Virus record (IMG/VR): IMGVR_UViG_3300047172_000045
Coordinates: 1-39,487 of that record
Direction: 5' to 3' (one strand)
Source: a virus
DNA: 39,487 nt
Made by a program: the position numbers and the translations under genes. Below the pieces are notes generated by a model. The model saw only the letters and a list, made by a program, of their open reading frames with translations, did no database searches and had not been told where the DNA came from. Positions 6,735 to 37,858 of this stretch are shown here, one piece after another; within the stretch, counting starts at the first letter, position 1, and every line of letters begins with the position of its first letter.

Positions 6735-6968
6735 CTATATTTCACCCTGTACCATCAGCTCGAACACATAGTTGGCGCGCCGGAAATGCCGGGTGCAATA
6801 GATGATCGTCCCCGATGTGCGGTCCACAATCGCGTAGCAGCCCGCGCAGGGGCCGTGCCGCCAGAACTGGAGAATGTAGTCTCGTTCTGGCGGGCGGGCT
6901 TCCTGGCTTTTCCTTTCGGCGCTGGCAACGTAGATGACGTTGCCCTCCACCCTCACAATAGACAGCAT
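6735..6968 (-). CDS. Small protein, unknown function (77 aa)
   Basis: Last gene of leftward operon 1. Its ATG overlaps the stop of the gene before it (TGATG), so it is probably translated by coupling; no strong ribosome-binding site is visible. The product looks like a small beta-rich protein (MLSIVRVEGNVIYV, then YAIVDRTSGTIIYC) ending in a basic helix (RHFRRANYVFELM). Two nearby Cys occur in GPCAGCY. No family is recognised. Confidence 0.65.
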   Translation of the reverse strand: MLSIVRVEGNVIYVASAERKSQEARPPERDYILQFWRHGPCAGCYAIVDRTSGTIIYCTRHFRRANYVFELMVQGEI

Positions 6969-7153
6969 CAGTGCACAGTGACCCTGACGATTGTGACCTG
7001 GCCGATGATGGCCGCTTTCGAGATCGCGGCCATGGCGTCGAGCCGGGAAGCGAAAAAAGCGCTATCAAAACTATCGCCCGTCCACCGGCCCTTGGTGTTG
7101 AGCCATAGCTGGCCCCTGTAGCCCTCTTCGGTGCAAATAACGAGGTAGCGCAT
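6968..7153 (-). CDS. Small protein, unknown function (61 aa)
   Basis: ATG 7153 is preferred, with GAGGGG 8 nt upstream; an adjoining GTG at 7156 would add one residue. It overlaps the stop of the preceding gene (TGATG). The plan is a strand (RYLVICTEEG), a Trp-containing loop, a helix (SRLDAMAAISKAA) and a closing strand (TIVRVTV). It is similar in outline to the products at 6416 and 7683. No known family. Confidence 0.68.
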   Translation of the reverse strand: MRYLVICTEEGYRGQLWLNTKGRWTGDSFDSAFFASRLDAMAAISKAAIIGQVTIVRVTVH

Positions 7154-7527
7154 CACAGTAACCCCTCGTTGAACCGGTCAAATATGGCGAGGGCGCGGGC
7201 GCGGCTCTTTCTGGCGTAGCGGATCGTTCGCTCTCCCCTGGCTGGCTGGAGCGTGCTGGACGATTCTACGACAGCGTGCCGGCCCTTGAGGCTTCCGCGC
7301 CGGATGGTGCGCAGGAAATAGACCAACGGCTTCGCTGGCCGTCCGCGCGGCCTCTTTGGCGCGGCGTGGTGCTCGCAAATCTCATAGGCCCACGTGACAG
7401 GCTGAGCCTGGATAAGCCGGGCCGCGAGGTCCTTGCGGCTGAATGTCCTTATCCGGCCCTTAGGCGTTTGGAGCGTGCCCACGTAGTGGTGTGTGGCGTG
7501 CTCATAGATGGCGACTTGGTAACGCAT
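7153..7527 (-). CDS. Basic protein with AT-hook-like motif (124 aa)
   Basis: ATG 7527 is chosen because AGGAGA precedes it by about 10 nt; an upstream in-frame ATG at 7566 would overlap the stop of the preceding small gene. The N-terminal half looks like a strand-rich small domain (RYQVAIYEHATHHYVGTLQT). Near residues 69-80 it carries KRPRGRPAKP, which fits the AT-hook core RGRP, and the C-terminus is strongly basic. It may bind AT-rich DNA. It sits third in leftward operon 1. Confidence 0.68.
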   Translation of the reverse strand: MRYQVAIYEHATHHYVGTLQTPKGRIRTFSRKDLAARLIQAQPVTWAYEICEHHAAPKRPRGRPAKPLVYFLRTIRRGSLKGRHAVVESSSTLQPARGERTIRYARKSRARALAIFDRFNEGLL

Positions 7528-7562
7528 GGCAGATTTGTCTCCTGTGATGCGTGTGTCATACC

Positions 7563-7670
7563 TCAATCACACGTGTGATAATTCTGATGGGTAGCCATCA
7601 GGCATCCCCGGTCCTCTGTGACTGCTAACGCGAGCACGAGAAACGCAAGACAAAGAAACGCGAGGCGCAT
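7563..7670 (-). CDS. 35-residue membrane or secreted peptide
   Basis: This small gene opens at ATG 7670 with AAGGAG 8 nt upstream, a near-ideal ribosome-binding site. The peptide starts MRLAFLCLAFLVLALAV, a single hydrophobic segment of about 16 residues, followed by a short polar tail with two Cys. The frame fits exactly between the genes at 7683 and 7527. The hydrophobic part could be a signal anchor or, with C7, membrane tethering. Its size and shape recall toxic or membrane-altering phage peptides, but no family is recognised. Confidence 0.55.
   Translation of the reverse strand: MRLAFLCLAFLVLALAVTEDRGCLMATHQNYHTCD
7566..7579. repeat. 14-bp perfect palindrome ATCACACGTGTGAT
   Basis: It overlaps the end of the 35-residue gene, just before the next gene in leftward operon 1. 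A second small hairpin with 7-bp arms (CTGATGG / CCATCAG, 7584-7601) lies inside the same small gene. Together they could modulate transcription or translation within the operon. No T-run follows. Confidence 0.6.
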
Positions 7671-7682
7671 TAGCGGAACTCC

Positions 7683-7883
7683 TTACCGCTTGGTGACGTC
7701 TTCTTTGAATCGAACCAGCCTCACGTCGCTTAGCGGAAAGACGAGCTTGTACGTCCTAGCGGCATCGATGGCGTCCGCGTGCGTGTTGTAAAAATTTTGT
7801 CTTTCCCAACGGGCGTCCGCTTTTGGTTCGCGAGCCTCCAGGAGGTATTGTTCTCTGCGCTTTATCCAACCTGTCGTTGTCAT
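7683..7883 (-). CDS. Small protein, first gene of leftward operon 1
   Basis: A 66-residue protein beginning MTTTGWIKRR. GGAG lies 6 nt before ATG 7883. The plan is N-terminal basic, then YLLEAREP, a Trp, a helix (THADAIDAARTYKLV) and a closing strand (VRLVRFKE), matching the outline of the products at 6416 and 6968. The leaders of operons 1 and 2 are also similar in length and sequence. Function unknown. Confidence 0.7.
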   Translation of the reverse strand: MTTTGWIKRREQYLLEAREPKADARWERQNFYNTHADAIDAARTYKLVFPLSDVRLVRFKEDVTKR

Positions 7884-7980: not shown

Positions 7981-8010
7981 TTGACCTCGCGTCTAAAATC
8001 GTCAGATAAG
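7981..8010 (+). promoter_or_regulatory. Promoter of the second RHH gene
   Basis: TTGACC (7981-7986) and GATAAG (8005-8010) are 18 nt apart. The predicted start lies about 7 nt further on, at or next to the ATG 8017, so the transcript may be leaderless. No good ribosome-binding site precedes that ATG, which fits. Confidence 0.5.
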
Positions 8011-8016
8011 TGCGGT

Positions 8017-8226
8017 ATGACATACAACCTGACATGCACATTCAAGTGGAACCAGGCGCTCAAGGACAAGGTAAGCCGCCTCGCCGACGCCGAGGGGGAG
8101 CGCATGGTGAGCGAAGGCGAGATGATCCGGCGGCTAATAGAGCGGGCGCCCGATCCCGCCGAGGCCAAGGAATCGCCACGTCCAGCCAAGCAACGCGCGC
8201 TAGGGCTGGACAAGATCGCGAAGTGA
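8017..8226 (+). CDS. Ribbon-helix-helix DNA-binding protein (69 aa)
   Basis: A strand (MTYNLTCTFKW), then a helix (NQALKDKVSRLADAEG), then a helix with EMIRRLIERA. This matches the Arc-type fold and resembles the RHH protein at 2747. A Pro/Lys-rich tail follows. TTG 7981 would add 12 residues but is the -35 box of the promoter, so ATG 8017 is preferred. It is transcribed divergently from leftward operon 1. Its neighbours suggest it represses the two palindrome-bearing promoters or its own; this is inference. Confidence 0.7.
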   Translation: MTYNLTCTFKWNQALKDKVSRLADAEGERMVSEGEMIRRLIERAPDPAEAKESPRPAKQRALGLDKIAK

Positions 8227-8265
8227 TGATAGTTGTTTTGGAGCAACATCAAGGGTTATTGAGCG

Positions 8266-8568
8266 ATGGCTTTAATAAAAGTCAAACAAAAGCGAGGCCC
8301 TGGAAAGCCTATCCAGAAGGGCCAAGTCCTTAATCCTTTGGGGCGTCCAAAAGGCTCGAAGTCCAAACTCGGCGAGGACTTCATCCAGGCTGTCTATGAG
8401 CGTTTCCAAGCTCGAGGTGTCGATGCAATTAACGATATGATCGATATCGATCCCGGCGGATTCGTGAAGGTCTGCGCGGGGCTGGTCCCCAAAGACATCA
8501 GTGTGAACTTGACCGGAGCAGAGCAGTTCGTGCAGGCCTGGAAGGCCATATCGGAGAAAGCCGCGTAG
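8266..8568 (+). CDS. DUF5681-like protein, candidate small terminase subunit
   Basis: A 100-residue basic protein. Its N-terminus has the pattern GKPIQKGQ..NPLGRPKGSKSKLGEDF, typical of DUF5681-like phage proteins encoded next to large terminases. The middle is helical, and VKVCAGLVPKDISV matches the usual end of that family. It would bind phage DNA at the packaging start site and hand it to the large subunit at 8640. It opens the late operon. It lacks the long coiled-coil of classic small terminases, so the role rests on family habit and position. Confidence 0.68.
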   Translation: MALIKVKQKRGPGKPIQKGQVLNPLGRPKGSKSKLGEDFIQAVYERFQARGVDAINDMIDIDPGGFVKVCAGLVPKDISVNLTGAEQFVQAWKAISEKAA

Positions 8569-8639
8569 GTTGAGTTTTATGAACAGGTTCCATAAGACAA
8601 CTTATGCGAATGACTTAAGCGCTTGATATAAGGCAGAAA

Positions 8640-10070
8640 ATGAGCGCACCCGGCATCCTAGAACCATGGGCGCGCGCCTGGATAGATAGCCCCAACGATC
8701 CCCTACGATTTGTAACCGGCGTTCTTGGCTACGCCCCGTATGGCACGCCGGGCGCGGATCGCGCGCTGGAGGGATGGCAAGAGACCGCGCTCAAGGCCCT
8801 CCGGGATGGTAGGAAGCGCATCTCGATCCGCAGCGGCCATGGCGTCGGAAAGACCACGTTCCTGGCCTGGATGGTTCTTTGGGGCCTTCTTACGCACGCC
8901 GATTGCAAAATCCCCGTCTCGCACGCATCCCAGGACCAGCTCCGAAGGACGATCTGGCCGGAAATCCGCAAGCAAATGCAGTTTTTGCCCGATGCGCTGC
9001 GCCAGCAAATCGATTTCCAGGCTGAGACCGTTCACATCAAGGCGGCGCCGGAGCTTTCGTTCGCTGTCGCCCGGACCGCCGCCAAGGAAAAACCCGAGGC
9101 GCTTGCCGGTTTTCACGCGAGGTTTCTGCTTTTCCTGATCGATGAGGCCTCCGGCATCGATGATGCGATATTCGAGACGGCCATGGGCGCTTGGTCAACC
9201 GAGGGCGCGATTGTCATCCTCACGAGCAACCCGACGCGGCGTTCGGGGTTTTTCTACGACACTCACAACACGGCGCGCGACCGTTGGCATACGATGCGCG
9301 TCAACTGCGAGGATGTTCCCCGTGCGCGCGGGCACATCGAAGACGTTGTCGCCTCCTATGGCAAATCCTCAAACAAATATCGCGTTCGCGTCCTTGGTGA
9401 ATTTCCAACCGCCGACGACAGCACATTCATACCGCTCGACGTGGTGGAGGCCGCAAGAGGCCGAGAGGTCGCTAAACTTAACCTTGCTCCAATTTGGGGC
9501 GTGGATGTCGCCAGATTTGGAGACGACTCTTCAGCGCTTGCCAAGCGCCAAGGCAACCACCTTTTGGAGCCGGTTAAGGAGTGGCTGGGCAAGGACGTGG
9601 CTCAACTTACGGACCTGATAGGCGCGGAATATAATCGCCTGGATGAGGATGAGCGCCCGCACGCGATCATGATTGACGTGATCGGCATCGGGGCTGGCGT
9701 TGTCGACAATCTAAAGCGGCTCGGCTTGCCCGCTTATGGCGTCAATGTCGCCGAGAGCGCGTCGAATGACGATAAATATTTCAAACTTCGGGATGAACTG
9801 TGGGGCAAGGGCCGGGACTGGTTTATGTCGAAGAACTGCCGGATACCGCCCGATGAGAAGCTCATCGCCGAACTGGCCAGCCCGTTCTACGACTTCAACG
9901 CGCATGGTCAGATTGTGATCGAGCCGAAGAAGGAAATGAAAAAGCGCGGGCTGCGTTCACCAAATAAAGCCGATGCTTTTTTGAATACGTTCGGGCGTCC
10001 AGAGAAGCAAATCCAGAAGATTAACAGAACTCGCAACAAGGACAGGGGATATTCGTCATGGGCCGCTTAG
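8640..10070 (+). CDS. terL: Terminase large subunit
   Basis: The DNA-packaging motor and nuclease, 476 aa. The ATPase domain has Walker A SGHGVGKT (65-72) and Walker B LLFLIDEA with D168/E169. The RNase H-like nuclease domain has D289 (IWGVDVARFGDD), D346 (IMIDVIG) and D445 (KADAF). It drives DNA into the procapsid through the portal encoded at 12469 and cuts the concatemer. The P22-type portal partner suggests headful cutting. A 71-bp gap before it contains a small ATAAG/CTTAT hairpin and an AAGCGCTT palindrome but no gene. Confidence 0.93.
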   Translation: MSAPGILEPWARAWIDSPNDPLRFVTGVLGYAPYGTPGADRALEGWQETALKALRDGRKRISIRSGHGVGKTTFLAWMVLWGLLTHADCKIPVSHASQDQLRRTIWPEIRKQMQFLPDALRQQIDFQAETVHIKAAPELSFAVARTAAKEKPEALAGFHARFLLFLIDEASGIDDAIFETAMGAWSTEGAIVILTSNPTRRSGFFYDTHNTARDRWHTMRVNCEDVPRARGHIEDVVASYGKSSNKYRVRVLGEFPTADDSTFIPLDVVEAARGREVAKLNLAPIWGVDVARFGDDSSALAKRQGNHLLEPVKEWLGKDVAQLTDLIGAEYNRLDEDERPHAIMIDVIGIGAGVVDNLKRLGLPAYGVNVAESASNDDKYFKLRDELWGKGRDWFMSKNCRIPPDEKLIAELASPFYDFNAHGQIVIEPKKEMKKRGLRSPNKADAFLNTFGRPEKQIQKINRTRNKDRGYSSWAA

Positions 10071-23502: not shown

Positions 23503-25706
23503 GTGAACTTCCAGAAGGCTTCACACTCGATCCGCCGCCATCATCTCAAGGCTACGGTGCTGCATTGCCGTCCGGTTTTACGCTGGATAGTCCAAACAAA
23601 GGTGTCGCGAAGACTGGCCCGGATGTGCCTGATCTTAGTCATATCGATGATGAGAAGCAGCTTTTGGGGGAACTCGACAAAATCCCAACCGATCAACGTC
23701 AAGCCGCCCTTGATAAATGGGCGTCTGGCCGCGTTGCGCTTGATCGTCAGGGGTTTAGTTCTTTTTCAAAGCGCGTCGGGGATGCCATCGGGCGCATATC
23801 TCAAGCTGTTCCCGTTCTTGGCGGCTTAACCGATGAAGGTGAGGCTGCGCTTCACAGCATGAACGGCGGCAATTACGATGTGCAGCTTGCCTATAGCCGC
23901 GCACGAAACAAAGCTCAAAACGAAGCGGAAACGCCCAAAATATCAACTCCGTTCGGGGACATTTACGAAAGCGGCATAGAAAAGGCAGCCGGTACTATAG
24001 GCGGAGCGATGGCCGCGCCCATGATGCGCTTGATTGGCGGCACCGGTGCGCTTCCTGGCGCTGTGAACACAACGGCAAATTTTGTGCCAGCAGCGGCGGC
24101 TGACGCCTTCTCTCGCGGCGAGGGCGGCATAGATAAGCGAGCAGAGGCGGCTTCCGATGCTGTTGGAGGTCCCGGCATTGTCACGCCTTACGCGCTCACG
24201 GATGCCGCGCTTCTTGGTGCCGGAGCCGGAAGGCTGGAGCGCTCGGCGCAAAATGCAGCCAATGCGCGCCCCCCCGCGCCAACCAGCCCAACGCGCAATC
24301 AGATCGTTGCGACCGCAGACCATGAGGGCGTGACGGTGCCCGACTTTCTGGCTTCAGATAGTCAGGCGAAAAAGAATGTTGCGGGCGCCCTGGCCAGCCA
24401 GCCTTTGACAGGGCCGATAATCAGAAATGCAGCCGATGACGCAGCTTCGCAGATCGGGGACAGGCTTCGCGCGATTTCCGACGAATACAGCAATCAGGGA
24501 ACCGGCCACGTCAGCGGAACATTTGACCCTACGGCGGCGGCAAATTCGGCTGGCGGTCAAGTTCGTGAATCTCTCCAAAATTGGATGGAGCACGAAAGCG
24601 CTAACGATCTAAGCAATATTTACGGCAATCTTTTCTCGCAATTGTCGACCAATCGCACATGGCAAATTCCGCACACGGTCAACACAATTCGCAATATTGT
24701 TCAACAGGAAGACCTGGCGTCGACGCCTATCGGGCGTCAGATTTTGGCGCGCCTTGGTGAGGCAGCGGACCCCCAGGCAAGACCGAACGGCTTTGACGCC
24801 GGAAGCCTTCGCAGACTTCGGACCTATGTTGGCAATATGATCGATGACAGTCTTTTGCCTGATGCGGGGACGATCAAGCCAGCATTGAAACAGGTGTATG
24901 GTGGCCTTAGCCGCGACCTTGACAGCATCTTTCGCCGGAATAATCTCCTGCCCGAATGGCAAAACGCAAACGCGGTCGCGCGCCAATATTCCGAAGAGCG
25001 TGAGGCCCTTACAAGGGTCATCGGGCTTGATGGTAGCGCGCCAGCGGAGCGCGTAGTTGACCGTCTTTTGACGATGGCCGGAACGAAGAGCGGCGCCGAT
25101 ATGCAGCAACTTATGTTGGCCAAGCAGCGCGCGTCTCCGCAAGTTTGGAATGAACTCGCGTCGGCGGCTGTCCGGCGCCTTGGGCAAGGCAATGCCTCTC
25201 AAATGGGATCGCCGGGCATGACTGCCGGATTTTCCCCGGACAAGTTTCTAACCTCATGGAATAAGCTTTCGGAAAACGGTAAGGCGACATTGTTCGGTCC
25301 CGGCGTGAGCACACTCAGAAATTCGCTCGATAACATCGCCACGCTTTCTGATCGCTTCCGAGATATCCGAAAATTCCAAAATCCATCAGGAACCGCGCAA
25401 GTGACGGGTGCGACGACGCTACTGGCTCAATTGGCTGGCGCGCTCGCCGGGCATCCCGTCGCGGCGGCAACCGCCGTGGCCCAAGTGTCCGGCGCTGGTA
25501 TCCTGTCTTATTTGCTTTCCCGGCCAGCCACTGCGCAAGCGGTTAGCCGCTTCGGAAGTGCTTACGTTAATCATTTGGCGACAAATCACAGTCAAGCGGC
25601 CATGAAGCTCGCGGCCATTACTTTGGCGAAACATGTCTCCGATGTGACAGGTGAGAATAAAAAGCAAATTGAGCAACGGCTTAATGCCATGGCGGGGGCG
25701 CAATAA
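23499..25706 (+). CDS. Large internal virion / ejection protein (735 aa)
   Basis: ATG 23499 overlaps the preceding stop. Near the start it carries two copies of the motif LPxGFTLD, common in large podovirus ejection proteins. Most of it is helical. Two Ala/Gly-rich hydrophobic stretches (AAGTIGGAMAAPMMRLIGG, and LLAQLAGALAGHPVAAATAV near residue 650) could insert into a membrane. It probably helps form a channel across the host envelope during injection. No catalytic motif is visible. Confidence 0.72.
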   Translation: MSELPEGFTLDPPPSSQGYGAALPSGFTLDSPNKGVAKTGPDVPDLSHIDDEKQLLGELDKIPTDQRQAALDKWASGRVALDRQGFSSFSKRVGDAIGRISQAVPVLGGLTDEGEAALHSMNGGNYDVQLAYSRARNKAQNEAETPKISTPFGDIYESGIEKAAGTIGGAMAAPMMRLIGGTGALPGAVNTTANFVPAAAADAFSRGEGGIDKRAEAASDAVGGPGIVTPYALTDAALLGAGAGRLERSAQNAANARPPAPTSPTRNQIVATADHEGVTVPDFLASDSQAKKNVAGALASQPLTGPIIRNAADDAASQIGDRLRAISDEYSNQGTGHVSGTFDPTAAANSAGGQVRESLQNWMEHESANDLSNIYGNLFSQLSTNRTWQIPHTVNTIRNIVQQEDLASTPIGRQILARLGEAADPQARPNGFDAGSLRRLRTYVGNMIDDSLLPDAGTIKPALKQVYGGLSRDLDSIFRRNNLLPEWQNANAVARQYSEEREALTRVIGLDGSAPAERVVDRLLTMAGTKSGADMQQLMLAKQRASPQVWNELASAAVRRLGQGNASQMGSPGMTAGFSPDKFLTSWNKLSENGKATLFGPGVSTLRNSLDNIATLSDRFRDIRKFQNPSGTAQVTGATTLLAQLAGALAGHPVAAATAVAQVSGAGILSYLLSRPATAQAVSRFGSAYVNHLATNHSQAAMKLAAITLAKHVSDVTGENKKQIEQRLNAMAGAQ

Positions 25707-26596
25707 TGGCCCTTCTCGATCAAATCATCTCAGCCGAGAGCGGCGGCAATCCCACGCTCACGAATCCGCGCTCTTCCGCTGGCGGTCTCGGCCAGTTTCT
25801 GAACAGCACATGGTTGAGCACGATCAAAAGGGATTTTCCGCAGATCGCGGACGGCAAGACCGATGCGCAGATCATCGCCCTAAAAACAGACCCTGCGCAA
25901 GCCGATCTTCAACGGCAAGCGCTTGCGGCCTTCACCAAGGGCAATCAGGATTATCTCACGTCGAAGGGTATCGATCCGACGCCGGGCAACACTTATCTTG
26001 CTCACTTCGCCGGGCCGGGCGGTGCCGTCGCGGCTCTCTCAAATCCAGACGCCCCGGTTGAGAAAATTCTCGGCCAAGCGGCGGTTGACGCCAATCCGCA
26101 AATTAGGGGCATGACCGGCGCGCAACTGGCGCAATGGGCTGACAACACAGTCAACAAGCAATCAGGAGGCCGCATGGCTGCCGACCTTTCCCAGCCTCAG
26201 CAGACCGGCCTATTAGGCTTGCTGGGTATTCAAAACCAGTTTGGCGCGGCGCCGCAATCATCTTGGGCGCCACAAACCGCCGACACGTTCGGGAATCAAA
26301 CGGCTGCCTCGCAGCCCTTGAGTATGTCAACGCCGCTTGGCGATTTCTCGATAGGCCAGACGCCCGGCCAGAATGGTCAGCCATCGCCGGGCGTGACTAT
26401 CGGAACGCCGCTCGGAAGCGTCAATGTGTCGGGGGGCGCCCAGTCCAACCCGGCGCTGGCCGCGCTGGCTGATCCTCCGCAACAGCAGCAGCAACCGTTT
26501 TCCATGGCGCCGCAATCTCAGCCGCAAAAGGCGCCGGTCAATCTGGCGGCCCTCGCTCAACTGGCGCAAATTCCCAAGCTTGGCCTTTTGGCATAG
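25706..26596 (+). CDS. Virion lytic transglycosylase
   Basis: 296 aa. Residues 1-110 form a goose-type/SLT-like transglycosylase: catalytic E11 in IISAESGGNP, then SSAGGLGQFLNSTWL and a later YLAHFAGPGGA segment. This should cut peptidoglycan locally during DNA entry. Residues from about 155 on are Gln/Pro/Ala-rich and probably disordered. The gene begins at the stop of the ejection-protein gene. No signal peptide is present, consistent with delivery inside the virion. Confidence 0.85.
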   Translation: MALLDQIISAESGGNPTLTNPRSSAGGLGQFLNSTWLSTIKRDFPQIADGKTDAQIIALKTDPAQADLQRQALAAFTKGNQDYLTSKGIDPTPGNTYLAHFAGPGGAVAALSNPDAPVEKILGQAAVDANPQIRGMTGAQLAQWADNTVNKQSGGRMAADLSQPQQTGLLGLLGIQNQFGAAPQSSWAPQTADTFGNQTAASQPLSMSTPLGDFSIGQTPGQNGQPSPGVTIGTPLGSVNVSGGAQSNPALAALADPPQQQQQPFSMAPQSQPQKAPVNLAALAQLAQIPKLGLLA

Positions 26597-26605
26597 GAGA
26601 AGACT

Positions 26606-28312
26606 GTGACCGAATATCTCTGGAGCCAGACGGCCCTCACAAATCAAACGTCAGACCCGACCGTGAATTGGCAGGAAGGCCAAGCGCCCTCGACGGTAAA
26701 CGACAGCGCCCGCGCGATGATGGCCGCGTTAGCCAAGAAGCGCGACGATGACGGCGGCTTGCTGGTAACGGGCGGAACATCGACAGCTTATACGCTAACC
26801 AGCAATCAAAATCTTGGCGCCGCTTCCTCGCCCGCGAACGTGAACGGCTTCAAGATCACTTTCCAGCCGAACGTAGCAAACGGCGCGGGCGCCACGCTTT
26901 CAGTCGATAGCCAGACCGCCGCGCCGCTCTACATGAACGGAACAACCGCGCTCCCGGCCGGATATTTTCAGATCAACGGGATTTACACAGCGGTCTATGA
27001 AGCCAGCATTCCAGCCTGGATCGTTCACAATGTCTTCGTCCCGCCTATCGCCATAGGCTCGGCGCAGGCCGCTGGCACGGCAAATGCTCAGACCGTCACG
27101 GCGCCCGGCTTCTCGCTTACGGCTGGCTCTGGCGTGATCTGGCTGCCTGGCTATGCGAATACGGGGGCGCTCACGCTCGCTGTGAATGGCGGCTCGGCGA
27201 AGAACGTCTATATCCAGACGGCCAACGGCCCGATTGCCTGCATCGGCGGCGAAGTGACCTCGAGCCAATATGCCATTTGCGTCTACGACGGAACGCAATT
27301 CGAACTTATCGATCCCTCGCCGAGACCGGGCTTCGGACCTCAAGCAACCCTGGCCAGCGCGTCAACCACAGACCTTGGCACGATCTACAGCCATAACATC
27401 TCGATCACGGGAACAACCACGATCACGTCCTTCGGATCGAGTGCGAACTCGGCGGCGCCGGTCTATCTTGTGACCTTCGCGGCTTCCCTGCTTCTCACCT
27501 ACAATGCCACGTCTCTTATTCTGCCGGGCGCGGCGAATATCCAGACACAAGCCGGTGATTATTGCCTTGCGCAATATCTTGGCTCTGGAAACTGGCAAGT
27601 GCTGGAATATGTCCGGGCGGCAATCCCGCTTACGATGTCGATGCCCGCTGTCCAGGGGCTTGTGGTCAAGAATGACGGAACGACGCCGAACTCGAAGATC
27701 GATGTCAGTTGCACATCGGCGATCCTGACGGTTGGCGGCATCGCCGGTGCGGCATTTAACATCGGCTCGCAGTCCCTTGTCATCAACCTGGGAACGACCG
27801 GCGCGAATGCCCTCGACACGGGCACGGTTGCGGCTTCTACCTTCTACTTTATTTATATAATTTATAATCCCGCCACGAATACGGTTGCGGGACTGGCTTC
27901 ACTTTCCTCGACGGCTCCAACGCTTCCGAGCGGATACACGCATTACATGCGCGTGGGGGCGATGCAGACGGATGGAAGCTCTAATCTGCGGCGCACTTAT
28001 CAGAAAGGTAAGCGGCTTTCGTTTACGTCTTCACCGCCGGCGACAGGAACGGGAACGGTGACTATCGCAACCTACGTTCCGTCAACTTATGAAAGTTTTT
28101 ATATGACTGTTTCCACAACATCGTCCAACACTTACGCCAACATAACAGACTCGAACGGACTCAATGTTGGCCAAGTTATTGACTCCACAACGGGTAGCCC
28201 CGTAACTATGTCAAATATAGCCAATTCAGGCGGTACAACGATCACGACAGCTACGGGTGGCACTGCGGCTTTTACGGTTGAGGGCTGGGTTGACAGCGTT
28301 AATGCGGTTTAG
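26606..28312 (+). CDS. Tail fibre / receptor-binding protein
   Basis: 568 aa. GTG 26606 follows AGGAG by 6 nt. The N-terminal segment (SDPTVNWQEGQAPSTVNDSARAMMAAL) is the widespread tail-attachment motif of phage fibre proteins. The remainder is a Gly/Ser/Thr-rich beta structure, with a C-terminal domain (from about 430) rich in Ser/Thr strands, probably the receptor-binding tip. Its stop overlaps the stop of the opposite-strand gene at 28309. Confidence 0.82.
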   Translation: MTEYLWSQTALTNQTSDPTVNWQEGQAPSTVNDSARAMMAALAKKRDDDGGLLVTGGTSTAYTLTSNQNLGAASSPANVNGFKITFQPNVANGAGATLSVDSQTAAPLYMNGTTALPAGYFQINGIYTAVYEASIPAWIVHNVFVPPIAIGSAQAAGTANAQTVTAPGFSLTAGSGVIWLPGYANTGALTLAVNGGSAKNVYIQTANGPIACIGGEVTSSQYAICVYDGTQFELIDPSPRPGFGPQATLASASTTDLGTIYSHNISITGTTTITSFGSSANSAAPVYLVTFAASLLLTYNATSLILPGAANIQTQAGDYCLAQYLGSGNWQVLEYVRAAIPLTMSMPAVQGLVVKNDGTTPNSKIDVSCTSAILTVGGIAGAAFNIGSQSLVINLGTTGANALDTGTVAASTFYFIYIIYNPATNTVAGLASLSSTAPTLPSGYTHYMRVGAMQTDGSSNLRRTYQKGKRLSFTSSPPATGTGTVTIATYVPSTYESFYMTVSTTSSNTYANITDSNGLNVGQVIDSTTGSPVTMSNIANSGGTTITTATGGTAAFTVEGWVDSVNAV

Positions 28313-28611
28313 GGTGCCTCGATAGAGTGGCCGAACCAATACAGGCAATCGCTGTACTGCTCGGCATATCTCATGTCGTGGCTGAGTGCGACCTGGCGGC
28401 AGTATGCCCAGCCGTTGGCCGATGGCATCCCGATCAGCCAGAGCGGGCGGCGCTTGCCGTCGCACGCGGCCATGGTATCGCCAAGCGCGCCAAGCAGACC
28501 GCCGCTGTTCACATTGTGCCCAAAGGTGCTCAAGGCTTGCCCGGTTGAACACTCGGCAAGCGCTGGCATCGCGAGCGCGGTCAAGGACAAAATCGCAAGT
28601 AGCCGTTTCAT
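28309..28611 (-). CDS. Secreted small Cys-containing protein, candidate moron
   Basis: ATG 28611 gives MKRLLAILSLTALAMPALA, a clear signal peptide, with likely cleavage before ECSTG. The mature part has about 81 residues with several Cys (possible disulphides) and the segments GGLLGALGDTMAACDG and RRPLWLIGMPSANGWAYC. It is the only leftward gene inside the late region and has its own sigma70-like promoter, the arrangement of a prophage-expressed cargo gene. It could alter the periplasm or exclude other phages. No family is recognised. Confidence 0.68.
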   Translation of the reverse strand: MKRLLAILSLTALAMPALAECSTGQALSTFGHNVNSGGLLGALGDTMAACDGKRRPLWLIGMPSANGWAYCRQVALSHDMRYAEQYSDCLYWFGHSIEAP

Positions 28612-28638
28612 TGTGATTCTCGCTAAAGTTGTAGTTAA

Positions 28639-28668
28639 ACTAAAAGCAAAATTACGTCCTCCTGTCAA
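28639..28668 (-). promoter_or_regulatory. Promoter of the secreted-protein gene
   Basis: On the minus strand, a perfect TTGACA (28668-28663) lies 18 nt before TTTAGT (28644-28639), about 28 nt upstream of ATG 28611. The -35 matches fully; the -10 matches three of six bases. Confidence 0.55.
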
Positions 28669-28756: not shown

Positions 28757-30097
28757 ATGAATTACGGGTTCGATCAACTTCAGCCGGAATATGAAAAGCT
28801 TTTTGGGCTAATGAAAATAACCCAATTTGCTGCCATTCAGGCTGATGCTGTCCGGGTCCTCAAGTCAAAAGACCGCTATGTTGCTGTCTCGCGAAAAACA
28901 GGCGTTCCCATTGTTCTTCTGATGGCGCTCAACGAGCGCGAGGACGGTGGACGCTTTGACTGTTATCTTGGCAACGGCGAGCCTCTAAACCGCGTCACTC
29001 GCCTTGTTCCGCAGGGCCGGGGGCCGTTTAGCTCGTGGGATGCTGGCGCCGTTGATGCCCTAACCTTTGAGCATCTTTGCGGCATCTCCGATTGGACTTG
29101 GGCGCTTGTGGCCTATCATGCCGAGGCGTGGAACGGTTGGGGCTACAGGATGCACGGCGTCCATTCGGCTTACCTATGGGCCGGATCGAATGTCTATACG
29201 GGCGGCAAATACATCTCGGACGGCCACTTCGACGCGACGGCCATGGATAGCCAGATTGGCGTTATCCCGCTCATGCGCGCGATTGTGGCCCTCGATCCCT
29301 CGCTAGGCTTGCCCGGCTGGCCAGAAGACGAGATTCCGGTCCCTCAGCCCGTGCCCGACGAAATCTCGAAGGCGATTGCACCGAAACCGTTGGCCTTGTT
29401 CACGGCGGCTCCGCAGCCTTCCTCCCTTATCCTTGACCGCGACATAGCCGAGCTTTGCCAAGGGGCTTATGCTTATCCTGGCGACGATCCCGTGACTTGG
29501 GATTATGTGGACGATGGCGCCGGCACGGGCGTCAAACTCATGGTCAAGGAAGTGAACGGCATCAGCGTCCTGATTTTTCCAGGGACCGAAAACATTCAGG
29601 ATTGCATTCGCGATCTTGAGGCTGTTGCCGAGACGCCCCTGGACGATCCGGCCTTCGGCCCGGTCCACTGGGGCGGCCATCAGGGCGTGGCCGTCGCGAT
29701 CAAGCGGCTTAACAATGTCTTTGGGCCTCGTTTTATTGTGGCTGGCCATTCTCTTGGCGCCATGCGTGCGGACAACGCCGTGGGCTACCTTATCCAGGCC
29801 GGAACGCCTCCGCTCGCCCGTGTCGTCTTTGGCGAGCCACGGCCCGGCTTTCAGAAGTTTGCGGACTATATCGCAAGCGTTCCGGCGCGGGCTTACCGGA
29901 ACGAGGCGGGCATTGTTGGCGATCCGGTTACGGCTGTTCCGTTCAAACTCTCCAACATGCCTTACGTTCACCCTTCCAAGCAAATCGGCTTCACGTCCGA
30001 TCCCTCATGGAACGATCTATGGGGGCCGGTCGCGCCACATCGAATTCAATATTACGTTGACGGCCTAAAGGGCGTCGCCACGGGGACACAGCTATGA
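28757..30097 (+). CDS. Endolysin: lysozyme-like domain fused to class-3 lipase
   Basis: 446 aa, two domains. Residues 1-180 match a phage glycosidase (lysozyme-like) family: TGVPIVLLMALNERE with likely catalytic E62, LGNGEPLNRVT, WNGWGYRMHGVHSAYLWAGSN, and GGKYISDGHFD. A Pro-rich linker (190-215) follows. Residues 225-446 are a Lipase_3 domain: FPGTENIQDCIRDLE, the nucleophile elbow GHSLG with S332, D389 in GDPVTAVP, and H428 in PHRIQYY. All three catalytic residues are in the expected order. It is the first gene of the lysis group and has no signal peptide, so it needs a holin. It may cut peptidoglycan and lipids at lysis. Confidence 0.85.
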   Translation: MNYGFDQLQPEYEKLFGLMKITQFAAIQADAVRVLKSKDRYVAVSRKTGVPIVLLMALNEREDGGRFDCYLGNGEPLNRVTRLVPQGRGPFSSWDAGAVDALTFEHLCGISDWTWALVAYHAEAWNGWGYRMHGVHSAYLWAGSNVYTGGKYISDGHFDATAMDSQIGVIPLMRAIVALDPSLGLPGWPEDEIPVPQPVPDEISKAIAPKPLALFTAAPQPSSLILDRDIAELCQGAYAYPGDDPVTWDYVDDGAGTGVKLMVKEVNGISVLIFPGTENIQDCIRDLEAVAETPLDDPAFGPVHWGGHQGVAVAIKRLNNVFGPRFIVAGHSLGAMRADNAVGYLIQAGTPPLARVVFGEPRPGFQKFADYIASVPARAYRNEAGIVGDPVTAVPFKLSNMPYVHPSKQIGFTSDPSWNDLWGPVAPHRIQYYVDGLKGVATGTQL

Positions 30098-30528
30098 TTA
30101 AGGTAATCCTGGCCGCAACAGCCGCGCTCATCCTCATGTCTGGCGCCATTGCTCAGCAAAAACCGGGGACCATCGCGGCCAGCCCGGCGCGCGCCTTGAA
30201 TGCCCTGGACAAGATCGTGCTCGCGGACCTCTTGAACGCCGACGCCATCGCGGTCGCGCAGGGGAATGACATCAATCATCAATGCTGGACGGCGCTGATC
30301 GATATCATCAAGAAGAAGCAGGCCACTCCCGCGACACCGCTTCCCACGATCCACCTTATCACCGATTTCCAAAACCTTTCAGACTTCGCCAACGCCTTGC
30401 AGCCCACCAGTAAGCTGAGCGTGGCGTGTGCTCCGATGGCGAACGCGGTCAAAGTGAGTGTCCTCCAACTTATCACGGGCATAGCTACTGGCCAGCTTAT
30501 GGGCCTGGTTCCAATTCCGGGGCTTTAA
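30094..30528 (+). CDS. Small exported protein of the lysis group
   Basis: 144 aa, overlapping the endolysin by 4 nt. MIKVILAATAALILMSGAIAQ is a typical signal peptide cleaved near residue 20. The mature part is mainly helical, has two Cys, and ends in a mildly hydrophobic segment (VLQLITGIATGQLMGLVPIPG). It may reach the periplasm and help envelope disruption, possibly as a spanin-like or lipase-partner protein. The evidence for a specific role is weak. Confidence 0.66.
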   Translation: MIKVILAATAALILMSGAIAQQKPGTIAASPARALNALDKIVLADLLNADAIAVAQGNDINHQCWTALIDIIKKKQATPATPLPTIHLITDFQNLSDFANALQPTSKLSVACAPMANAVKVSVLQLITGIATGQLMGLVPIPGL

Positions 30529-30530
30529 TC

Positions 30531-30863
30531 ATGACAGACGCAGAACCACAGGCGATGGACGTAAAGGACCGCGACAAGGAGCAATCATCGGCGGTCGCCG
30601 ACGACGCCAGCAAGAATGTCGTCATCACGCTCAGCCCTCACGGCGTCACGGTGGACGTTTCCGAAATCGCCATCCAGGCTGGGGTTGCGGCGATCCTGGC
30701 GTGGCTAGCGGCCAAGAGTGGCGTTCAAATTACGCCAGAGAGCGCGGCGGGGCTGCTTGGCACAATCGCCATGGTCGGGAACATCTGGCGGCGCCTGCGC
30801 GGCTCCAATGATGTGACCAAGGAAGTTCTCAAAACTCTGAATGTGAAGGACATAGTGCAATGA
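30531..30863 (+). CDS. Candidate holin with short membrane segments (110 aa)
   Basis: The charged N-terminus (MTDAEPQAMDVKDRDKEQSS) is followed by two hydrophobic helices (EIAIQAGVAAILAWLAAKSG and SAAGLLGTIAMVGNIW) with a short loop, then a basic-to-mixed tail. Two membrane helices plus a charged end is the layout of many holins, and the position after the endolysin fits. No holin family is recognised by sequence. Confidence 0.55.
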   Translation: MTDAEPQAMDVKDRDKEQSSAVADDASKNVVITLSPHGVTVDVSEIAIQAGVAAILAWLAAKSGVQITPESAAGLLGTIAMVGNIWRRLRGSNDVTKEVLKTLNVKDIVQ

Positions 30864-31180
30864 GCACTCAACAGGTCGAGCGAGACCGCAGAACGGGGCG
30901 TTTTATGTCTGGTGGCAATGGCCAAGGCGGCGAGCACAAAATATCCAGCGCTGCGCCCGCGCGCCCTGAAAAGCCTTCACACGACATCACCAAGACGGTT
31001 ATCCCGTTCATGAGTGCCCTTGTACTCTGTGTCGCGATCTTCGGCGCCGGAACAGCGGTTGGCCGCTATCTCACCGGGACCGATGATCGTATTGGCGGGA
31101 TCGAGAAGGATATCGGCGACATTAAGGGCGATATCCGGGATATCAAGCGGGCGGTTTCGGTTCGGAAGGCGCGGACTTAA
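30860..31180 (+). CDS. Single-pass membrane protein with coiled-coil tail (106 aa)
   Basis: The polar, basic start (1-45) is followed by one transmembrane helix (VIPFMSALVLCVAIFGAGTAVG) and a heptad-like tail (GGIEKDIGDIKGDIRDIKRAV). This resembles an inner-membrane spanin or an accessory holin. It is the last gene of the late operon, and its end overlaps the convergent leftward gene at 31143. Confidence 0.65.
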   Translation: MSTQQVERDRRTGRFMSGGNGQGGEHKISSAAPARPEKPSHDITKTVIPFMSALVLCVAIFGAGTAVGRYLTGTDDRIGGIEKDIGDIKGDIRDIKRAVSVRKART

Positions 31181-37468: not shown

Positions 37469-37858
37469 ATGACGAAATTGGCATTGAGTGAAGCGTGGTC
37501 GCGGCGGATCAAGCTGCGGGCCGAGGGCGGCAAGCTGCGGGTCGAGGGCTACAAGCTGCGGGCCGAGGGCAATAAGCTGCGGGCCGAGGGCGACAAGCTG
37601 TGTGCCGAGGGCGACAAGCTGCGGGCCGAGGGCGGCAAGCTGTGTGCCGAGGGCGACAAGCTGTGTACCGAGGGCGGCAAGCTGCGGGCCGAGGGCGGCA
37701 AGCTGTGGGCCGAGGGCGCCAAGCTGTGGGCCGGGGCGATTATTGAGCTTTACGGCAACGTGACGCTTTCGTGGTCTTGGAAAACAGAACACGGCGAATG
37801 CACGCTCGAAAATGGCGATGTGTACGGCGCGGAAAAGCAAGAATGTGAGGCAGTTTAA
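37469..37858 (+). CDS. Heptad-repeat protein (KLRAEGx repeats)
   Basis: 129 aa. Residues 15-84 are ten head-to-tail heptads of the form K-L-x-A-E-G-x, with a partial eleventh. The variable positions are R/C/W and G/D/N/Y/A. The periodicity suits an extended helix or coiled coil. A C-terminal strand region (AIIELYGNVTLSWSWKTEH) with two Cys follows. GGAAAGG precedes the ATG. It overlaps the annealing-protein start by one base. Function unknown. Similar repeat proteins occur in other proteobacterial phages. Confidence 0.7.
   Translation: MTKLALSEAWSRRIKLRAEGGKLRVEGYKLRAEGNKLRAEGDKLCAEGDKLRAEGGKLCAEGDKLCTEGGKLRAEGGKLWAEGAKLWAGAIIELYGNVTLSWSWKTEHGECTLENGDVYGAEKQECEAV
37511..37738 (+). repeat. 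Tandem 21-bp repeat array
   Basis: Ten units of 21 bp starting AAGCTGCGGGCCGAGGGC plus three variable bases occupy 37511-37720, with a partial eleventh to 37738. Units differ mainly at codon 3 (CGG/TGT/TGG) and codon 7. Such an array can change copy number by slippage or recombination while keeping the frame. It is not CRISPR, having no spacers. Confidence 0.92.

Follow-up and report, generated by a model that had tools for sequence, protein, structure and literature searches.

The fusion gene and its surroundings

The window analyzed here is the whole 39,487-base virus contig of IMG/VR record IMGVR_UViG_3300047172_000045, which is classed as linear. The contig carries terminase, portal, and integrase genes, and we therefore regard it as belonging to a temperate tailed phage. 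The N-terminal ~150 amino acids of its tail-fiber protein are 43 to 50% identical to Bradyrhizobium prophage proteins. Because this similarity and the relatives of the N-terminal domain described below point in the same direction, the host is probably a Bradyrhizobium-like alphaproteobacterium, as judged from sequence.

Downstream of the tail-fiber gene lies a gene that joins a putative peptidoglycan glycosidase domain to a class-3 lipase domain through a Pro-rich linker (Table 1). An earlier note on this DNA had described one uninterrupted frame carrying the motifs of two enzymes, and both points held. The gene translates into 446 amino acids without a stop, with NERE at residues 59 to 62 (ending in E62), WNGWGYR at 125, YLWAGSN at 139, FPGTEN at 274, GHSLG at 330 (S332), GDP at 388 (D389), and HRIQYY at 428 (H428). 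The two domains show no sign of having been brought together by a frameshift or an assembly join, since the linker is coding-like in composition (GC of 0.67, 0.48, and 0.72 at the three codon positions), is free of stops, and has no start led by a ribosome-binding site in or near it. The fusion protein has no signal peptide and also no lipobox, the mark of an outer-membrane lipoprotein of the spanin type.

Table 1. Features of the fusion gene and of the surrounding window
Feature	Position	Strand	Basis or remark
Virion-type transglycosylase	25706..26596	+	Upstream of tail fiber; second putative cell-wall enzyme of the phage; phrog_4067 E 1e-18, PF06737 below cut-off
Tail-fiber-like protein	26606..28312	+	Upstream of lysis region; N-terminal similarity to Bradyrhizobium prophage proteins
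119-aa signal-peptide-like protein	28309..28668	-	Between tail fiber and lysin; no confident family match
Endolysin-lipase fusion gene, 446 aa	28757..30097	+	Single open frame; composition coding-like throughout
N-terminal domain, residues 1-186	28757..29314	+	Putative peptidoglycan glycosidase, unmodeled family
Pro-rich linker, residues 187-214	29315..29398	+	PGWPEDEIPVPQPVPDEISKAIAPKPLA region; no RBS-led internal start
Class-3 lipase domain, residues 215-446	29399..30094	+	PF01764, phrog_21992, PDB profile, Foldseek, triad
Key codons E62, E123, S332, D389, H428	28940-28942, 29123-29125, 29750-29752, 29921-29923, 30038-30040		Within fusion gene
144-aa protein	30094..30528	+	Signal-peptide-like N-terminus, two Cys; start overlaps fusion stop (ATGA)
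110-aa small membrane protein	30531..30863	+	Holin candidate; one hydrophobic segment (hydropathy)
106-aa membrane protein	30860..31180	+	Coiled-coil-like tail, one hydrophobic segment; holin or inner-membrane spanin candidate
129-aa frame	37469..37858	+	Short tandem array of a KLRAEG-type unit

Three small genes follow the fusion gene. By eye, the 144-aa protein resembled proteins of related loci L172 to L174. It aligned weakly (hhalign, 81%; pairwise E of 1e-5) with the secreted portion of the protein encoded after the lipase at these loci, and phmmer detected no similarity between it and the proteins there. Neither the 110-aa nor the 106-aa membrane protein had a confident family match. When we scanned 27.8 to 32.0 kb for an o-spanin-like lipoprotein, none was recognized; the sole candidate was antisense inside the 144-aa gene and was judged to have arisen by chance.

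Identity of the two domains

By fold and family, residues ~215 to 446 are a class-3 lipase of the Ser-Asp-His type, for which ester hydrolysis is predicted. The domain matched Lipase_3 (PF01764) with 23.8 bits (E of 4e-5) against a curated cut-off of 22 bits, and its relatives score up to 61 bits. It also matched the esterase/lipase family phrog_21992 (E of 2e-16) and, as a single sequence searched against the PDB, the Penicillium lipase 1tia (E of 1.5e-5); a profile built from 56 phage relatives matched PDB lipases with an E of 6.5e-31. The earlier note had assigned a Lipase_3-type domain from the order of its residues, and an AlphaFold model (pLDDT of 88.1) ruled out the absence of a lipase fold. 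Foldseek placed class-3 lipases at the top of its matches (E of 3e-8), and the nearest folds were acylglycerol lipases, feruloyl esterases, and phospholipases A1. S332 and D389 are present in all 56 phage relatives and H428 in 54 of them, and in the alignment with 1tia, D389 falls on the Asp of its NDPV motif. Together, the modeled fold and the alignment imply that the three residues would share one active site.

Comparison with known lipases places the domain more precisely. It has in common with other PF01764 enzymes (fungal 1tia and 3ngm; phospholipase A1 7x0d) the fold, the GHSLG nucleophile elbow, and the order of Asp and His. Unlike those enzymes, the fusion is phage encoded, lacks a secretion signal, and carries its lipase behind a putative cell-wall domain. 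Members of phrog_21992, including proteins of Shewanella phage QDWS, Burkholderia phage BgManors32, and P-SSM2, have a homologous lipase domain and are often encoded near the end of the late genes, but they are stand-alone proteins of ~200 aa with no endolysin attached. Homology of the LysB or cutinase type was not found, the domain having matched only class-3 lipases and phrog_21992.

The N-terminal domain had no sequence match in Pfam, PHROGs, NCBIfam, or the PDB, and the two matches returned by a PDB sequence-profile search were both spurious. Its model was of high quality (pLDDT of 94.3), and all 28 of its PDB matches in Foldseek were goose-type lysozymes, lytic transglycosylases, or related glycosidases, each of them individually nonsignificant (E of 2.4 to 9.5; query TM of 0.34 or less). 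A search of BFVD gave one clear match, the "Peptidoglycan binding-like" protein A0A6J5MUJ5 (E of 8e-9), with the others weak. Across 63 aligned sequences, E62, N126, G127, G129, Y139, K151, D155, and Q166 are invariant and E123 is conserved in 62; E62 sits within a helix spanning residues 52 to 63 of the model, as an invariant Glu near the helix end. In relatives, PG_binding_1 follows the domain, or the domain is fused to Peptidase_M15.

The earlier note had called this domain lysozyme-like and likened it to phage glycosidase endolysins. The invariant E62 and the weak likeness to lysozyme-superfamily folds agree with that description, but by sequence the domain matched no known glycosidase family. 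Because of this, the label rests on fold likeness, the invariant Glu, the partner domains, and the gene position. We infer an undescribed, divergent family of the lysozyme superfamily and regard the domain, more cautiously than the lipase, as a putative peptidoglycan glycosidase. We confirmed the domain at 249 places in genomes, those listed being mostly from Bradyrhizobium, and at 369 places in viral contigs. It thus represents a widespread family of putative cell-wall enzymes in phages, plasmids, and bacteria that has no model in Pfam, PHROGs, or NCBIfam. The modular prophage endolysin of Bradyrhizobium phage ppBjS10J-1 (WAX24463.1) has the same N-terminal domain (36% identity) and occupies the same place after the tail genes, but it ends in PG_binding_1 where the fusion ends in a lipase. 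An unusual architecture was seen on a Sinorhizobium meliloti plasmid (L006:811-3564), where the domain forms the C-terminus of a 917-aa protein beside trypsin-like and DNA/RNA endonuclease domains.

Rarity of the fusion and separate lipase genes in relatives

The fused form is known from a single example on a metagenomic contig. No second fusion was present among 171 related N-domain frames in the fetched loci, among 87 lipase frames, or in ten further records. With the lipase as query, none was detected in 392 genomes of the family set and 385 of the class set; with the whole protein as query, none was detected in 397 genomes of the order set. These sets amount to about 1,170 genomes, although some genomes may be present in more than one sample. 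In viral contigs, too, no close relative of the full fusion protein was found, and a second scan with the lipase of locus L131 as query retrieved that lipase alone. The suggestion in the earlier note that such a fusion would be unusual is therefore borne out.

In contrast to the fusion, the lipase of alphaproteobacterial prophages is, as read from their gene order, normally a separate gene behind endolysins of unrelated types. At L172, an N-domain endolysin with PG_binding_1 (6923-7798) is followed 208 bases later by a lipase (8007-8672) and then by genes for a membrane protein and a secreted protein. At L253, in a genome (G221) from the family of Bradyrhizobium, the stop of an endolysin of the same kind overlaps the ATG of the lipase gene (ATGA). 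The lipase of the fusion groups with these lysis-linked lipases in one clade (support of 99/91), further members of which lie behind GH19-like lysins (L171, L173, and L254, with an M15 peptidase also preceding the lipase at L173) or a GH25 lysin (L174). Two lipases outside this clade (L256 and L257) also lie behind GH25-like genes. Given this arrangement, the fusion is one step removed from an existing gene order. Since the lipase occupies the position of PG_binding_1 in the endolysins of L172 and L253, an endolysin gene and the lipase gene beside it may have fused, the binding domain being lost in the process. The fusion thus probably originated from neighboring endolysin and lipase genes, with the lipase replacing a C-terminal peptidoglycan-binding domain.

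Association with lysins of unrelated types is what a lysis function predicts. Among 108 genes upstream of ~50 lipase genes, Pfam identified ~18 cell-wall hydrolases, comprising 11 Phage_lysozyme, two GH108, and two GH19 proteins and one each of GH25, M15, and glucosaminidase. No recognizable endolysin was found among the near upstream genes of the lipase at L175 and in several Burkholderia-type prophages, and in T4-like cyanophages the lipase relative is located away from the lysis genes. The Burkholderia-type relatives stand last in the late operon, where a small lipoprotein gene directly precedes the lipase gene and overlaps its start by 4 bases. This overlap recurs in many prophages, as at L185 (7549-7995) and other such loci, and the lipoprotein and lipase could be a working pair.

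Possible role in lysis

We consider it reasonably probable that the temperate phage uses the fusion as a bifunctional enzyme for lysis, released by a holin and predicted to cut both glycan strands and envelope lipids. Because relatives carry both enzymes as adjoining genes, it is probably a natural two-in-one lysis tool for a double-membraned host. Without a signal peptide, the protein would accumulate in the cytoplasm and should need a holin, for which the 110-aa and 106-aa proteins are candidates, to open the inner membrane and give it access to the periplasm. There, the N-terminal domain would cut glycan strands, a reaction in which E62 probably serves as catalytic acid, and the C-terminal domain would hydrolyze ester-linked envelope lipids, of which phospholipids in the membranes adjoining the wall are the likeliest. 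Both activities at one place could weaken wall and membranes alike, and lipid hydrolysis may aid rupture of the outer membrane or release of virions. The earlier note had left open whether envelope or storage lipids are the target; we favor the envelope because of the late gene position and the missing signal peptide.

Two known systems resemble the fusion. LysB, a mycolylarabinogalactan esterase, is the third lysis enzyme of mycobacteriophages and is required for efficient release (PMC5707550). It is likewise a lipolytic alpha/beta-hydrolase of a lysis cassette with a third lysis function, but it belongs to another family, is a separate gene, and serves phages of hosts with mycolic acids, whereas the fusion carries a class-3 lipase in a phage of an apparently Gram-negative host. 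The engineered chimera ELP-E10 (PMC12173070) has the same order of an N-terminal peptidoglycan hydrolase, a linker, and a C-terminal phage lipase. In contrast to the natural fusion, ELP-E10 is man-made, from a gp144-type lysin and a GDSL lipase that are unrelated to the two domains described here. The GDSL lipase gene comes from a likely phage lysis cassette. The chimera kills a Gram-negative host, and against Pseudomonas syringae both of its active sites were needed for optimal activity (PMC12173070). The fusion would thus be the natural equivalent of endolysin-lipase chimeras that are being engineered as antibacterials. In a literature search of incomplete coverage, we found neither natural endolysin-lipase fusions nor class-3 lipase genes described as lysis genes. 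Endolysins and phage lysis lipases were already known.

Breakage of the outer membrane is credited to spanins, yet a survey of 677 phages could find none in 91 of them (PMC6139136). The missing o-spanin lipoprotein in the 27.8- to 32.0-kb interval is no more than compatible with a spanin-like role for the fusion. A lipase that sits in lysis cassettes, and in one case is joined to the lysin, suggests an enzymatic means, open to testing, by which phages of Gram-negative hosts could achieve this breakage. More tentatively, class-3 lipases might be a general third lysis function in alphaproteobacterial, and perhaps Burkholderia, phages, a counterpart of LysB that would replace or assist spanins and that is fused here to an endolysin of a putative, undescribed glycosidase family.

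Other explanations attribute a different role to the lipase. It might act after lysis or outside the cell on acylated exopolysaccharide, lipopolysaccharide, or debris, so that virions are freed, and be joined to the lysin for corelease only. The authors of the engineered chimera weigh exopolysaccharide or lipopolysaccharide as the target and point to phage enzymes that are released and attack exopolysaccharide (PMC12173070), mycobacteriophage lacking LysB remains in debris (PMC5707550), and the position of the Burkholderia-type relatives behind a lipoprotein gene at the close of the late operon would fit. However, the fold relatives are lipases, esterases, and phospholipases rather than polysaccharide depolymerases, and the fusion protein contains no carbohydrate-binding domain, leaving this explanation unlikely in our view. 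Somewhat less likely still is a chance joining by recent deletion or sequence error, with the lipase encoded by a passenger, or moron, gene that is unconnected with lysis and serves the lysogen or counters competitors. The single fused case, the partners of the N-terminal domain on the S. meliloti plasmid, and the cyanophage lipases outside lysis regions are in its favor, but the Pro-rich, coding-like linker, the repeated placement of the lipase beside unrelated endolysins, and the lipase's want of a signal peptide argue against it. That the lipase is catalytically dead and positions the lysin as a lipid- or cell-wall-binding module, as its place in lieu of PG_binding_1 and a Gly at position 307 (Phe in 54 of 56 lipase sequences) might suggest, is very improbable given that S332, D389, and H428 are all retained.
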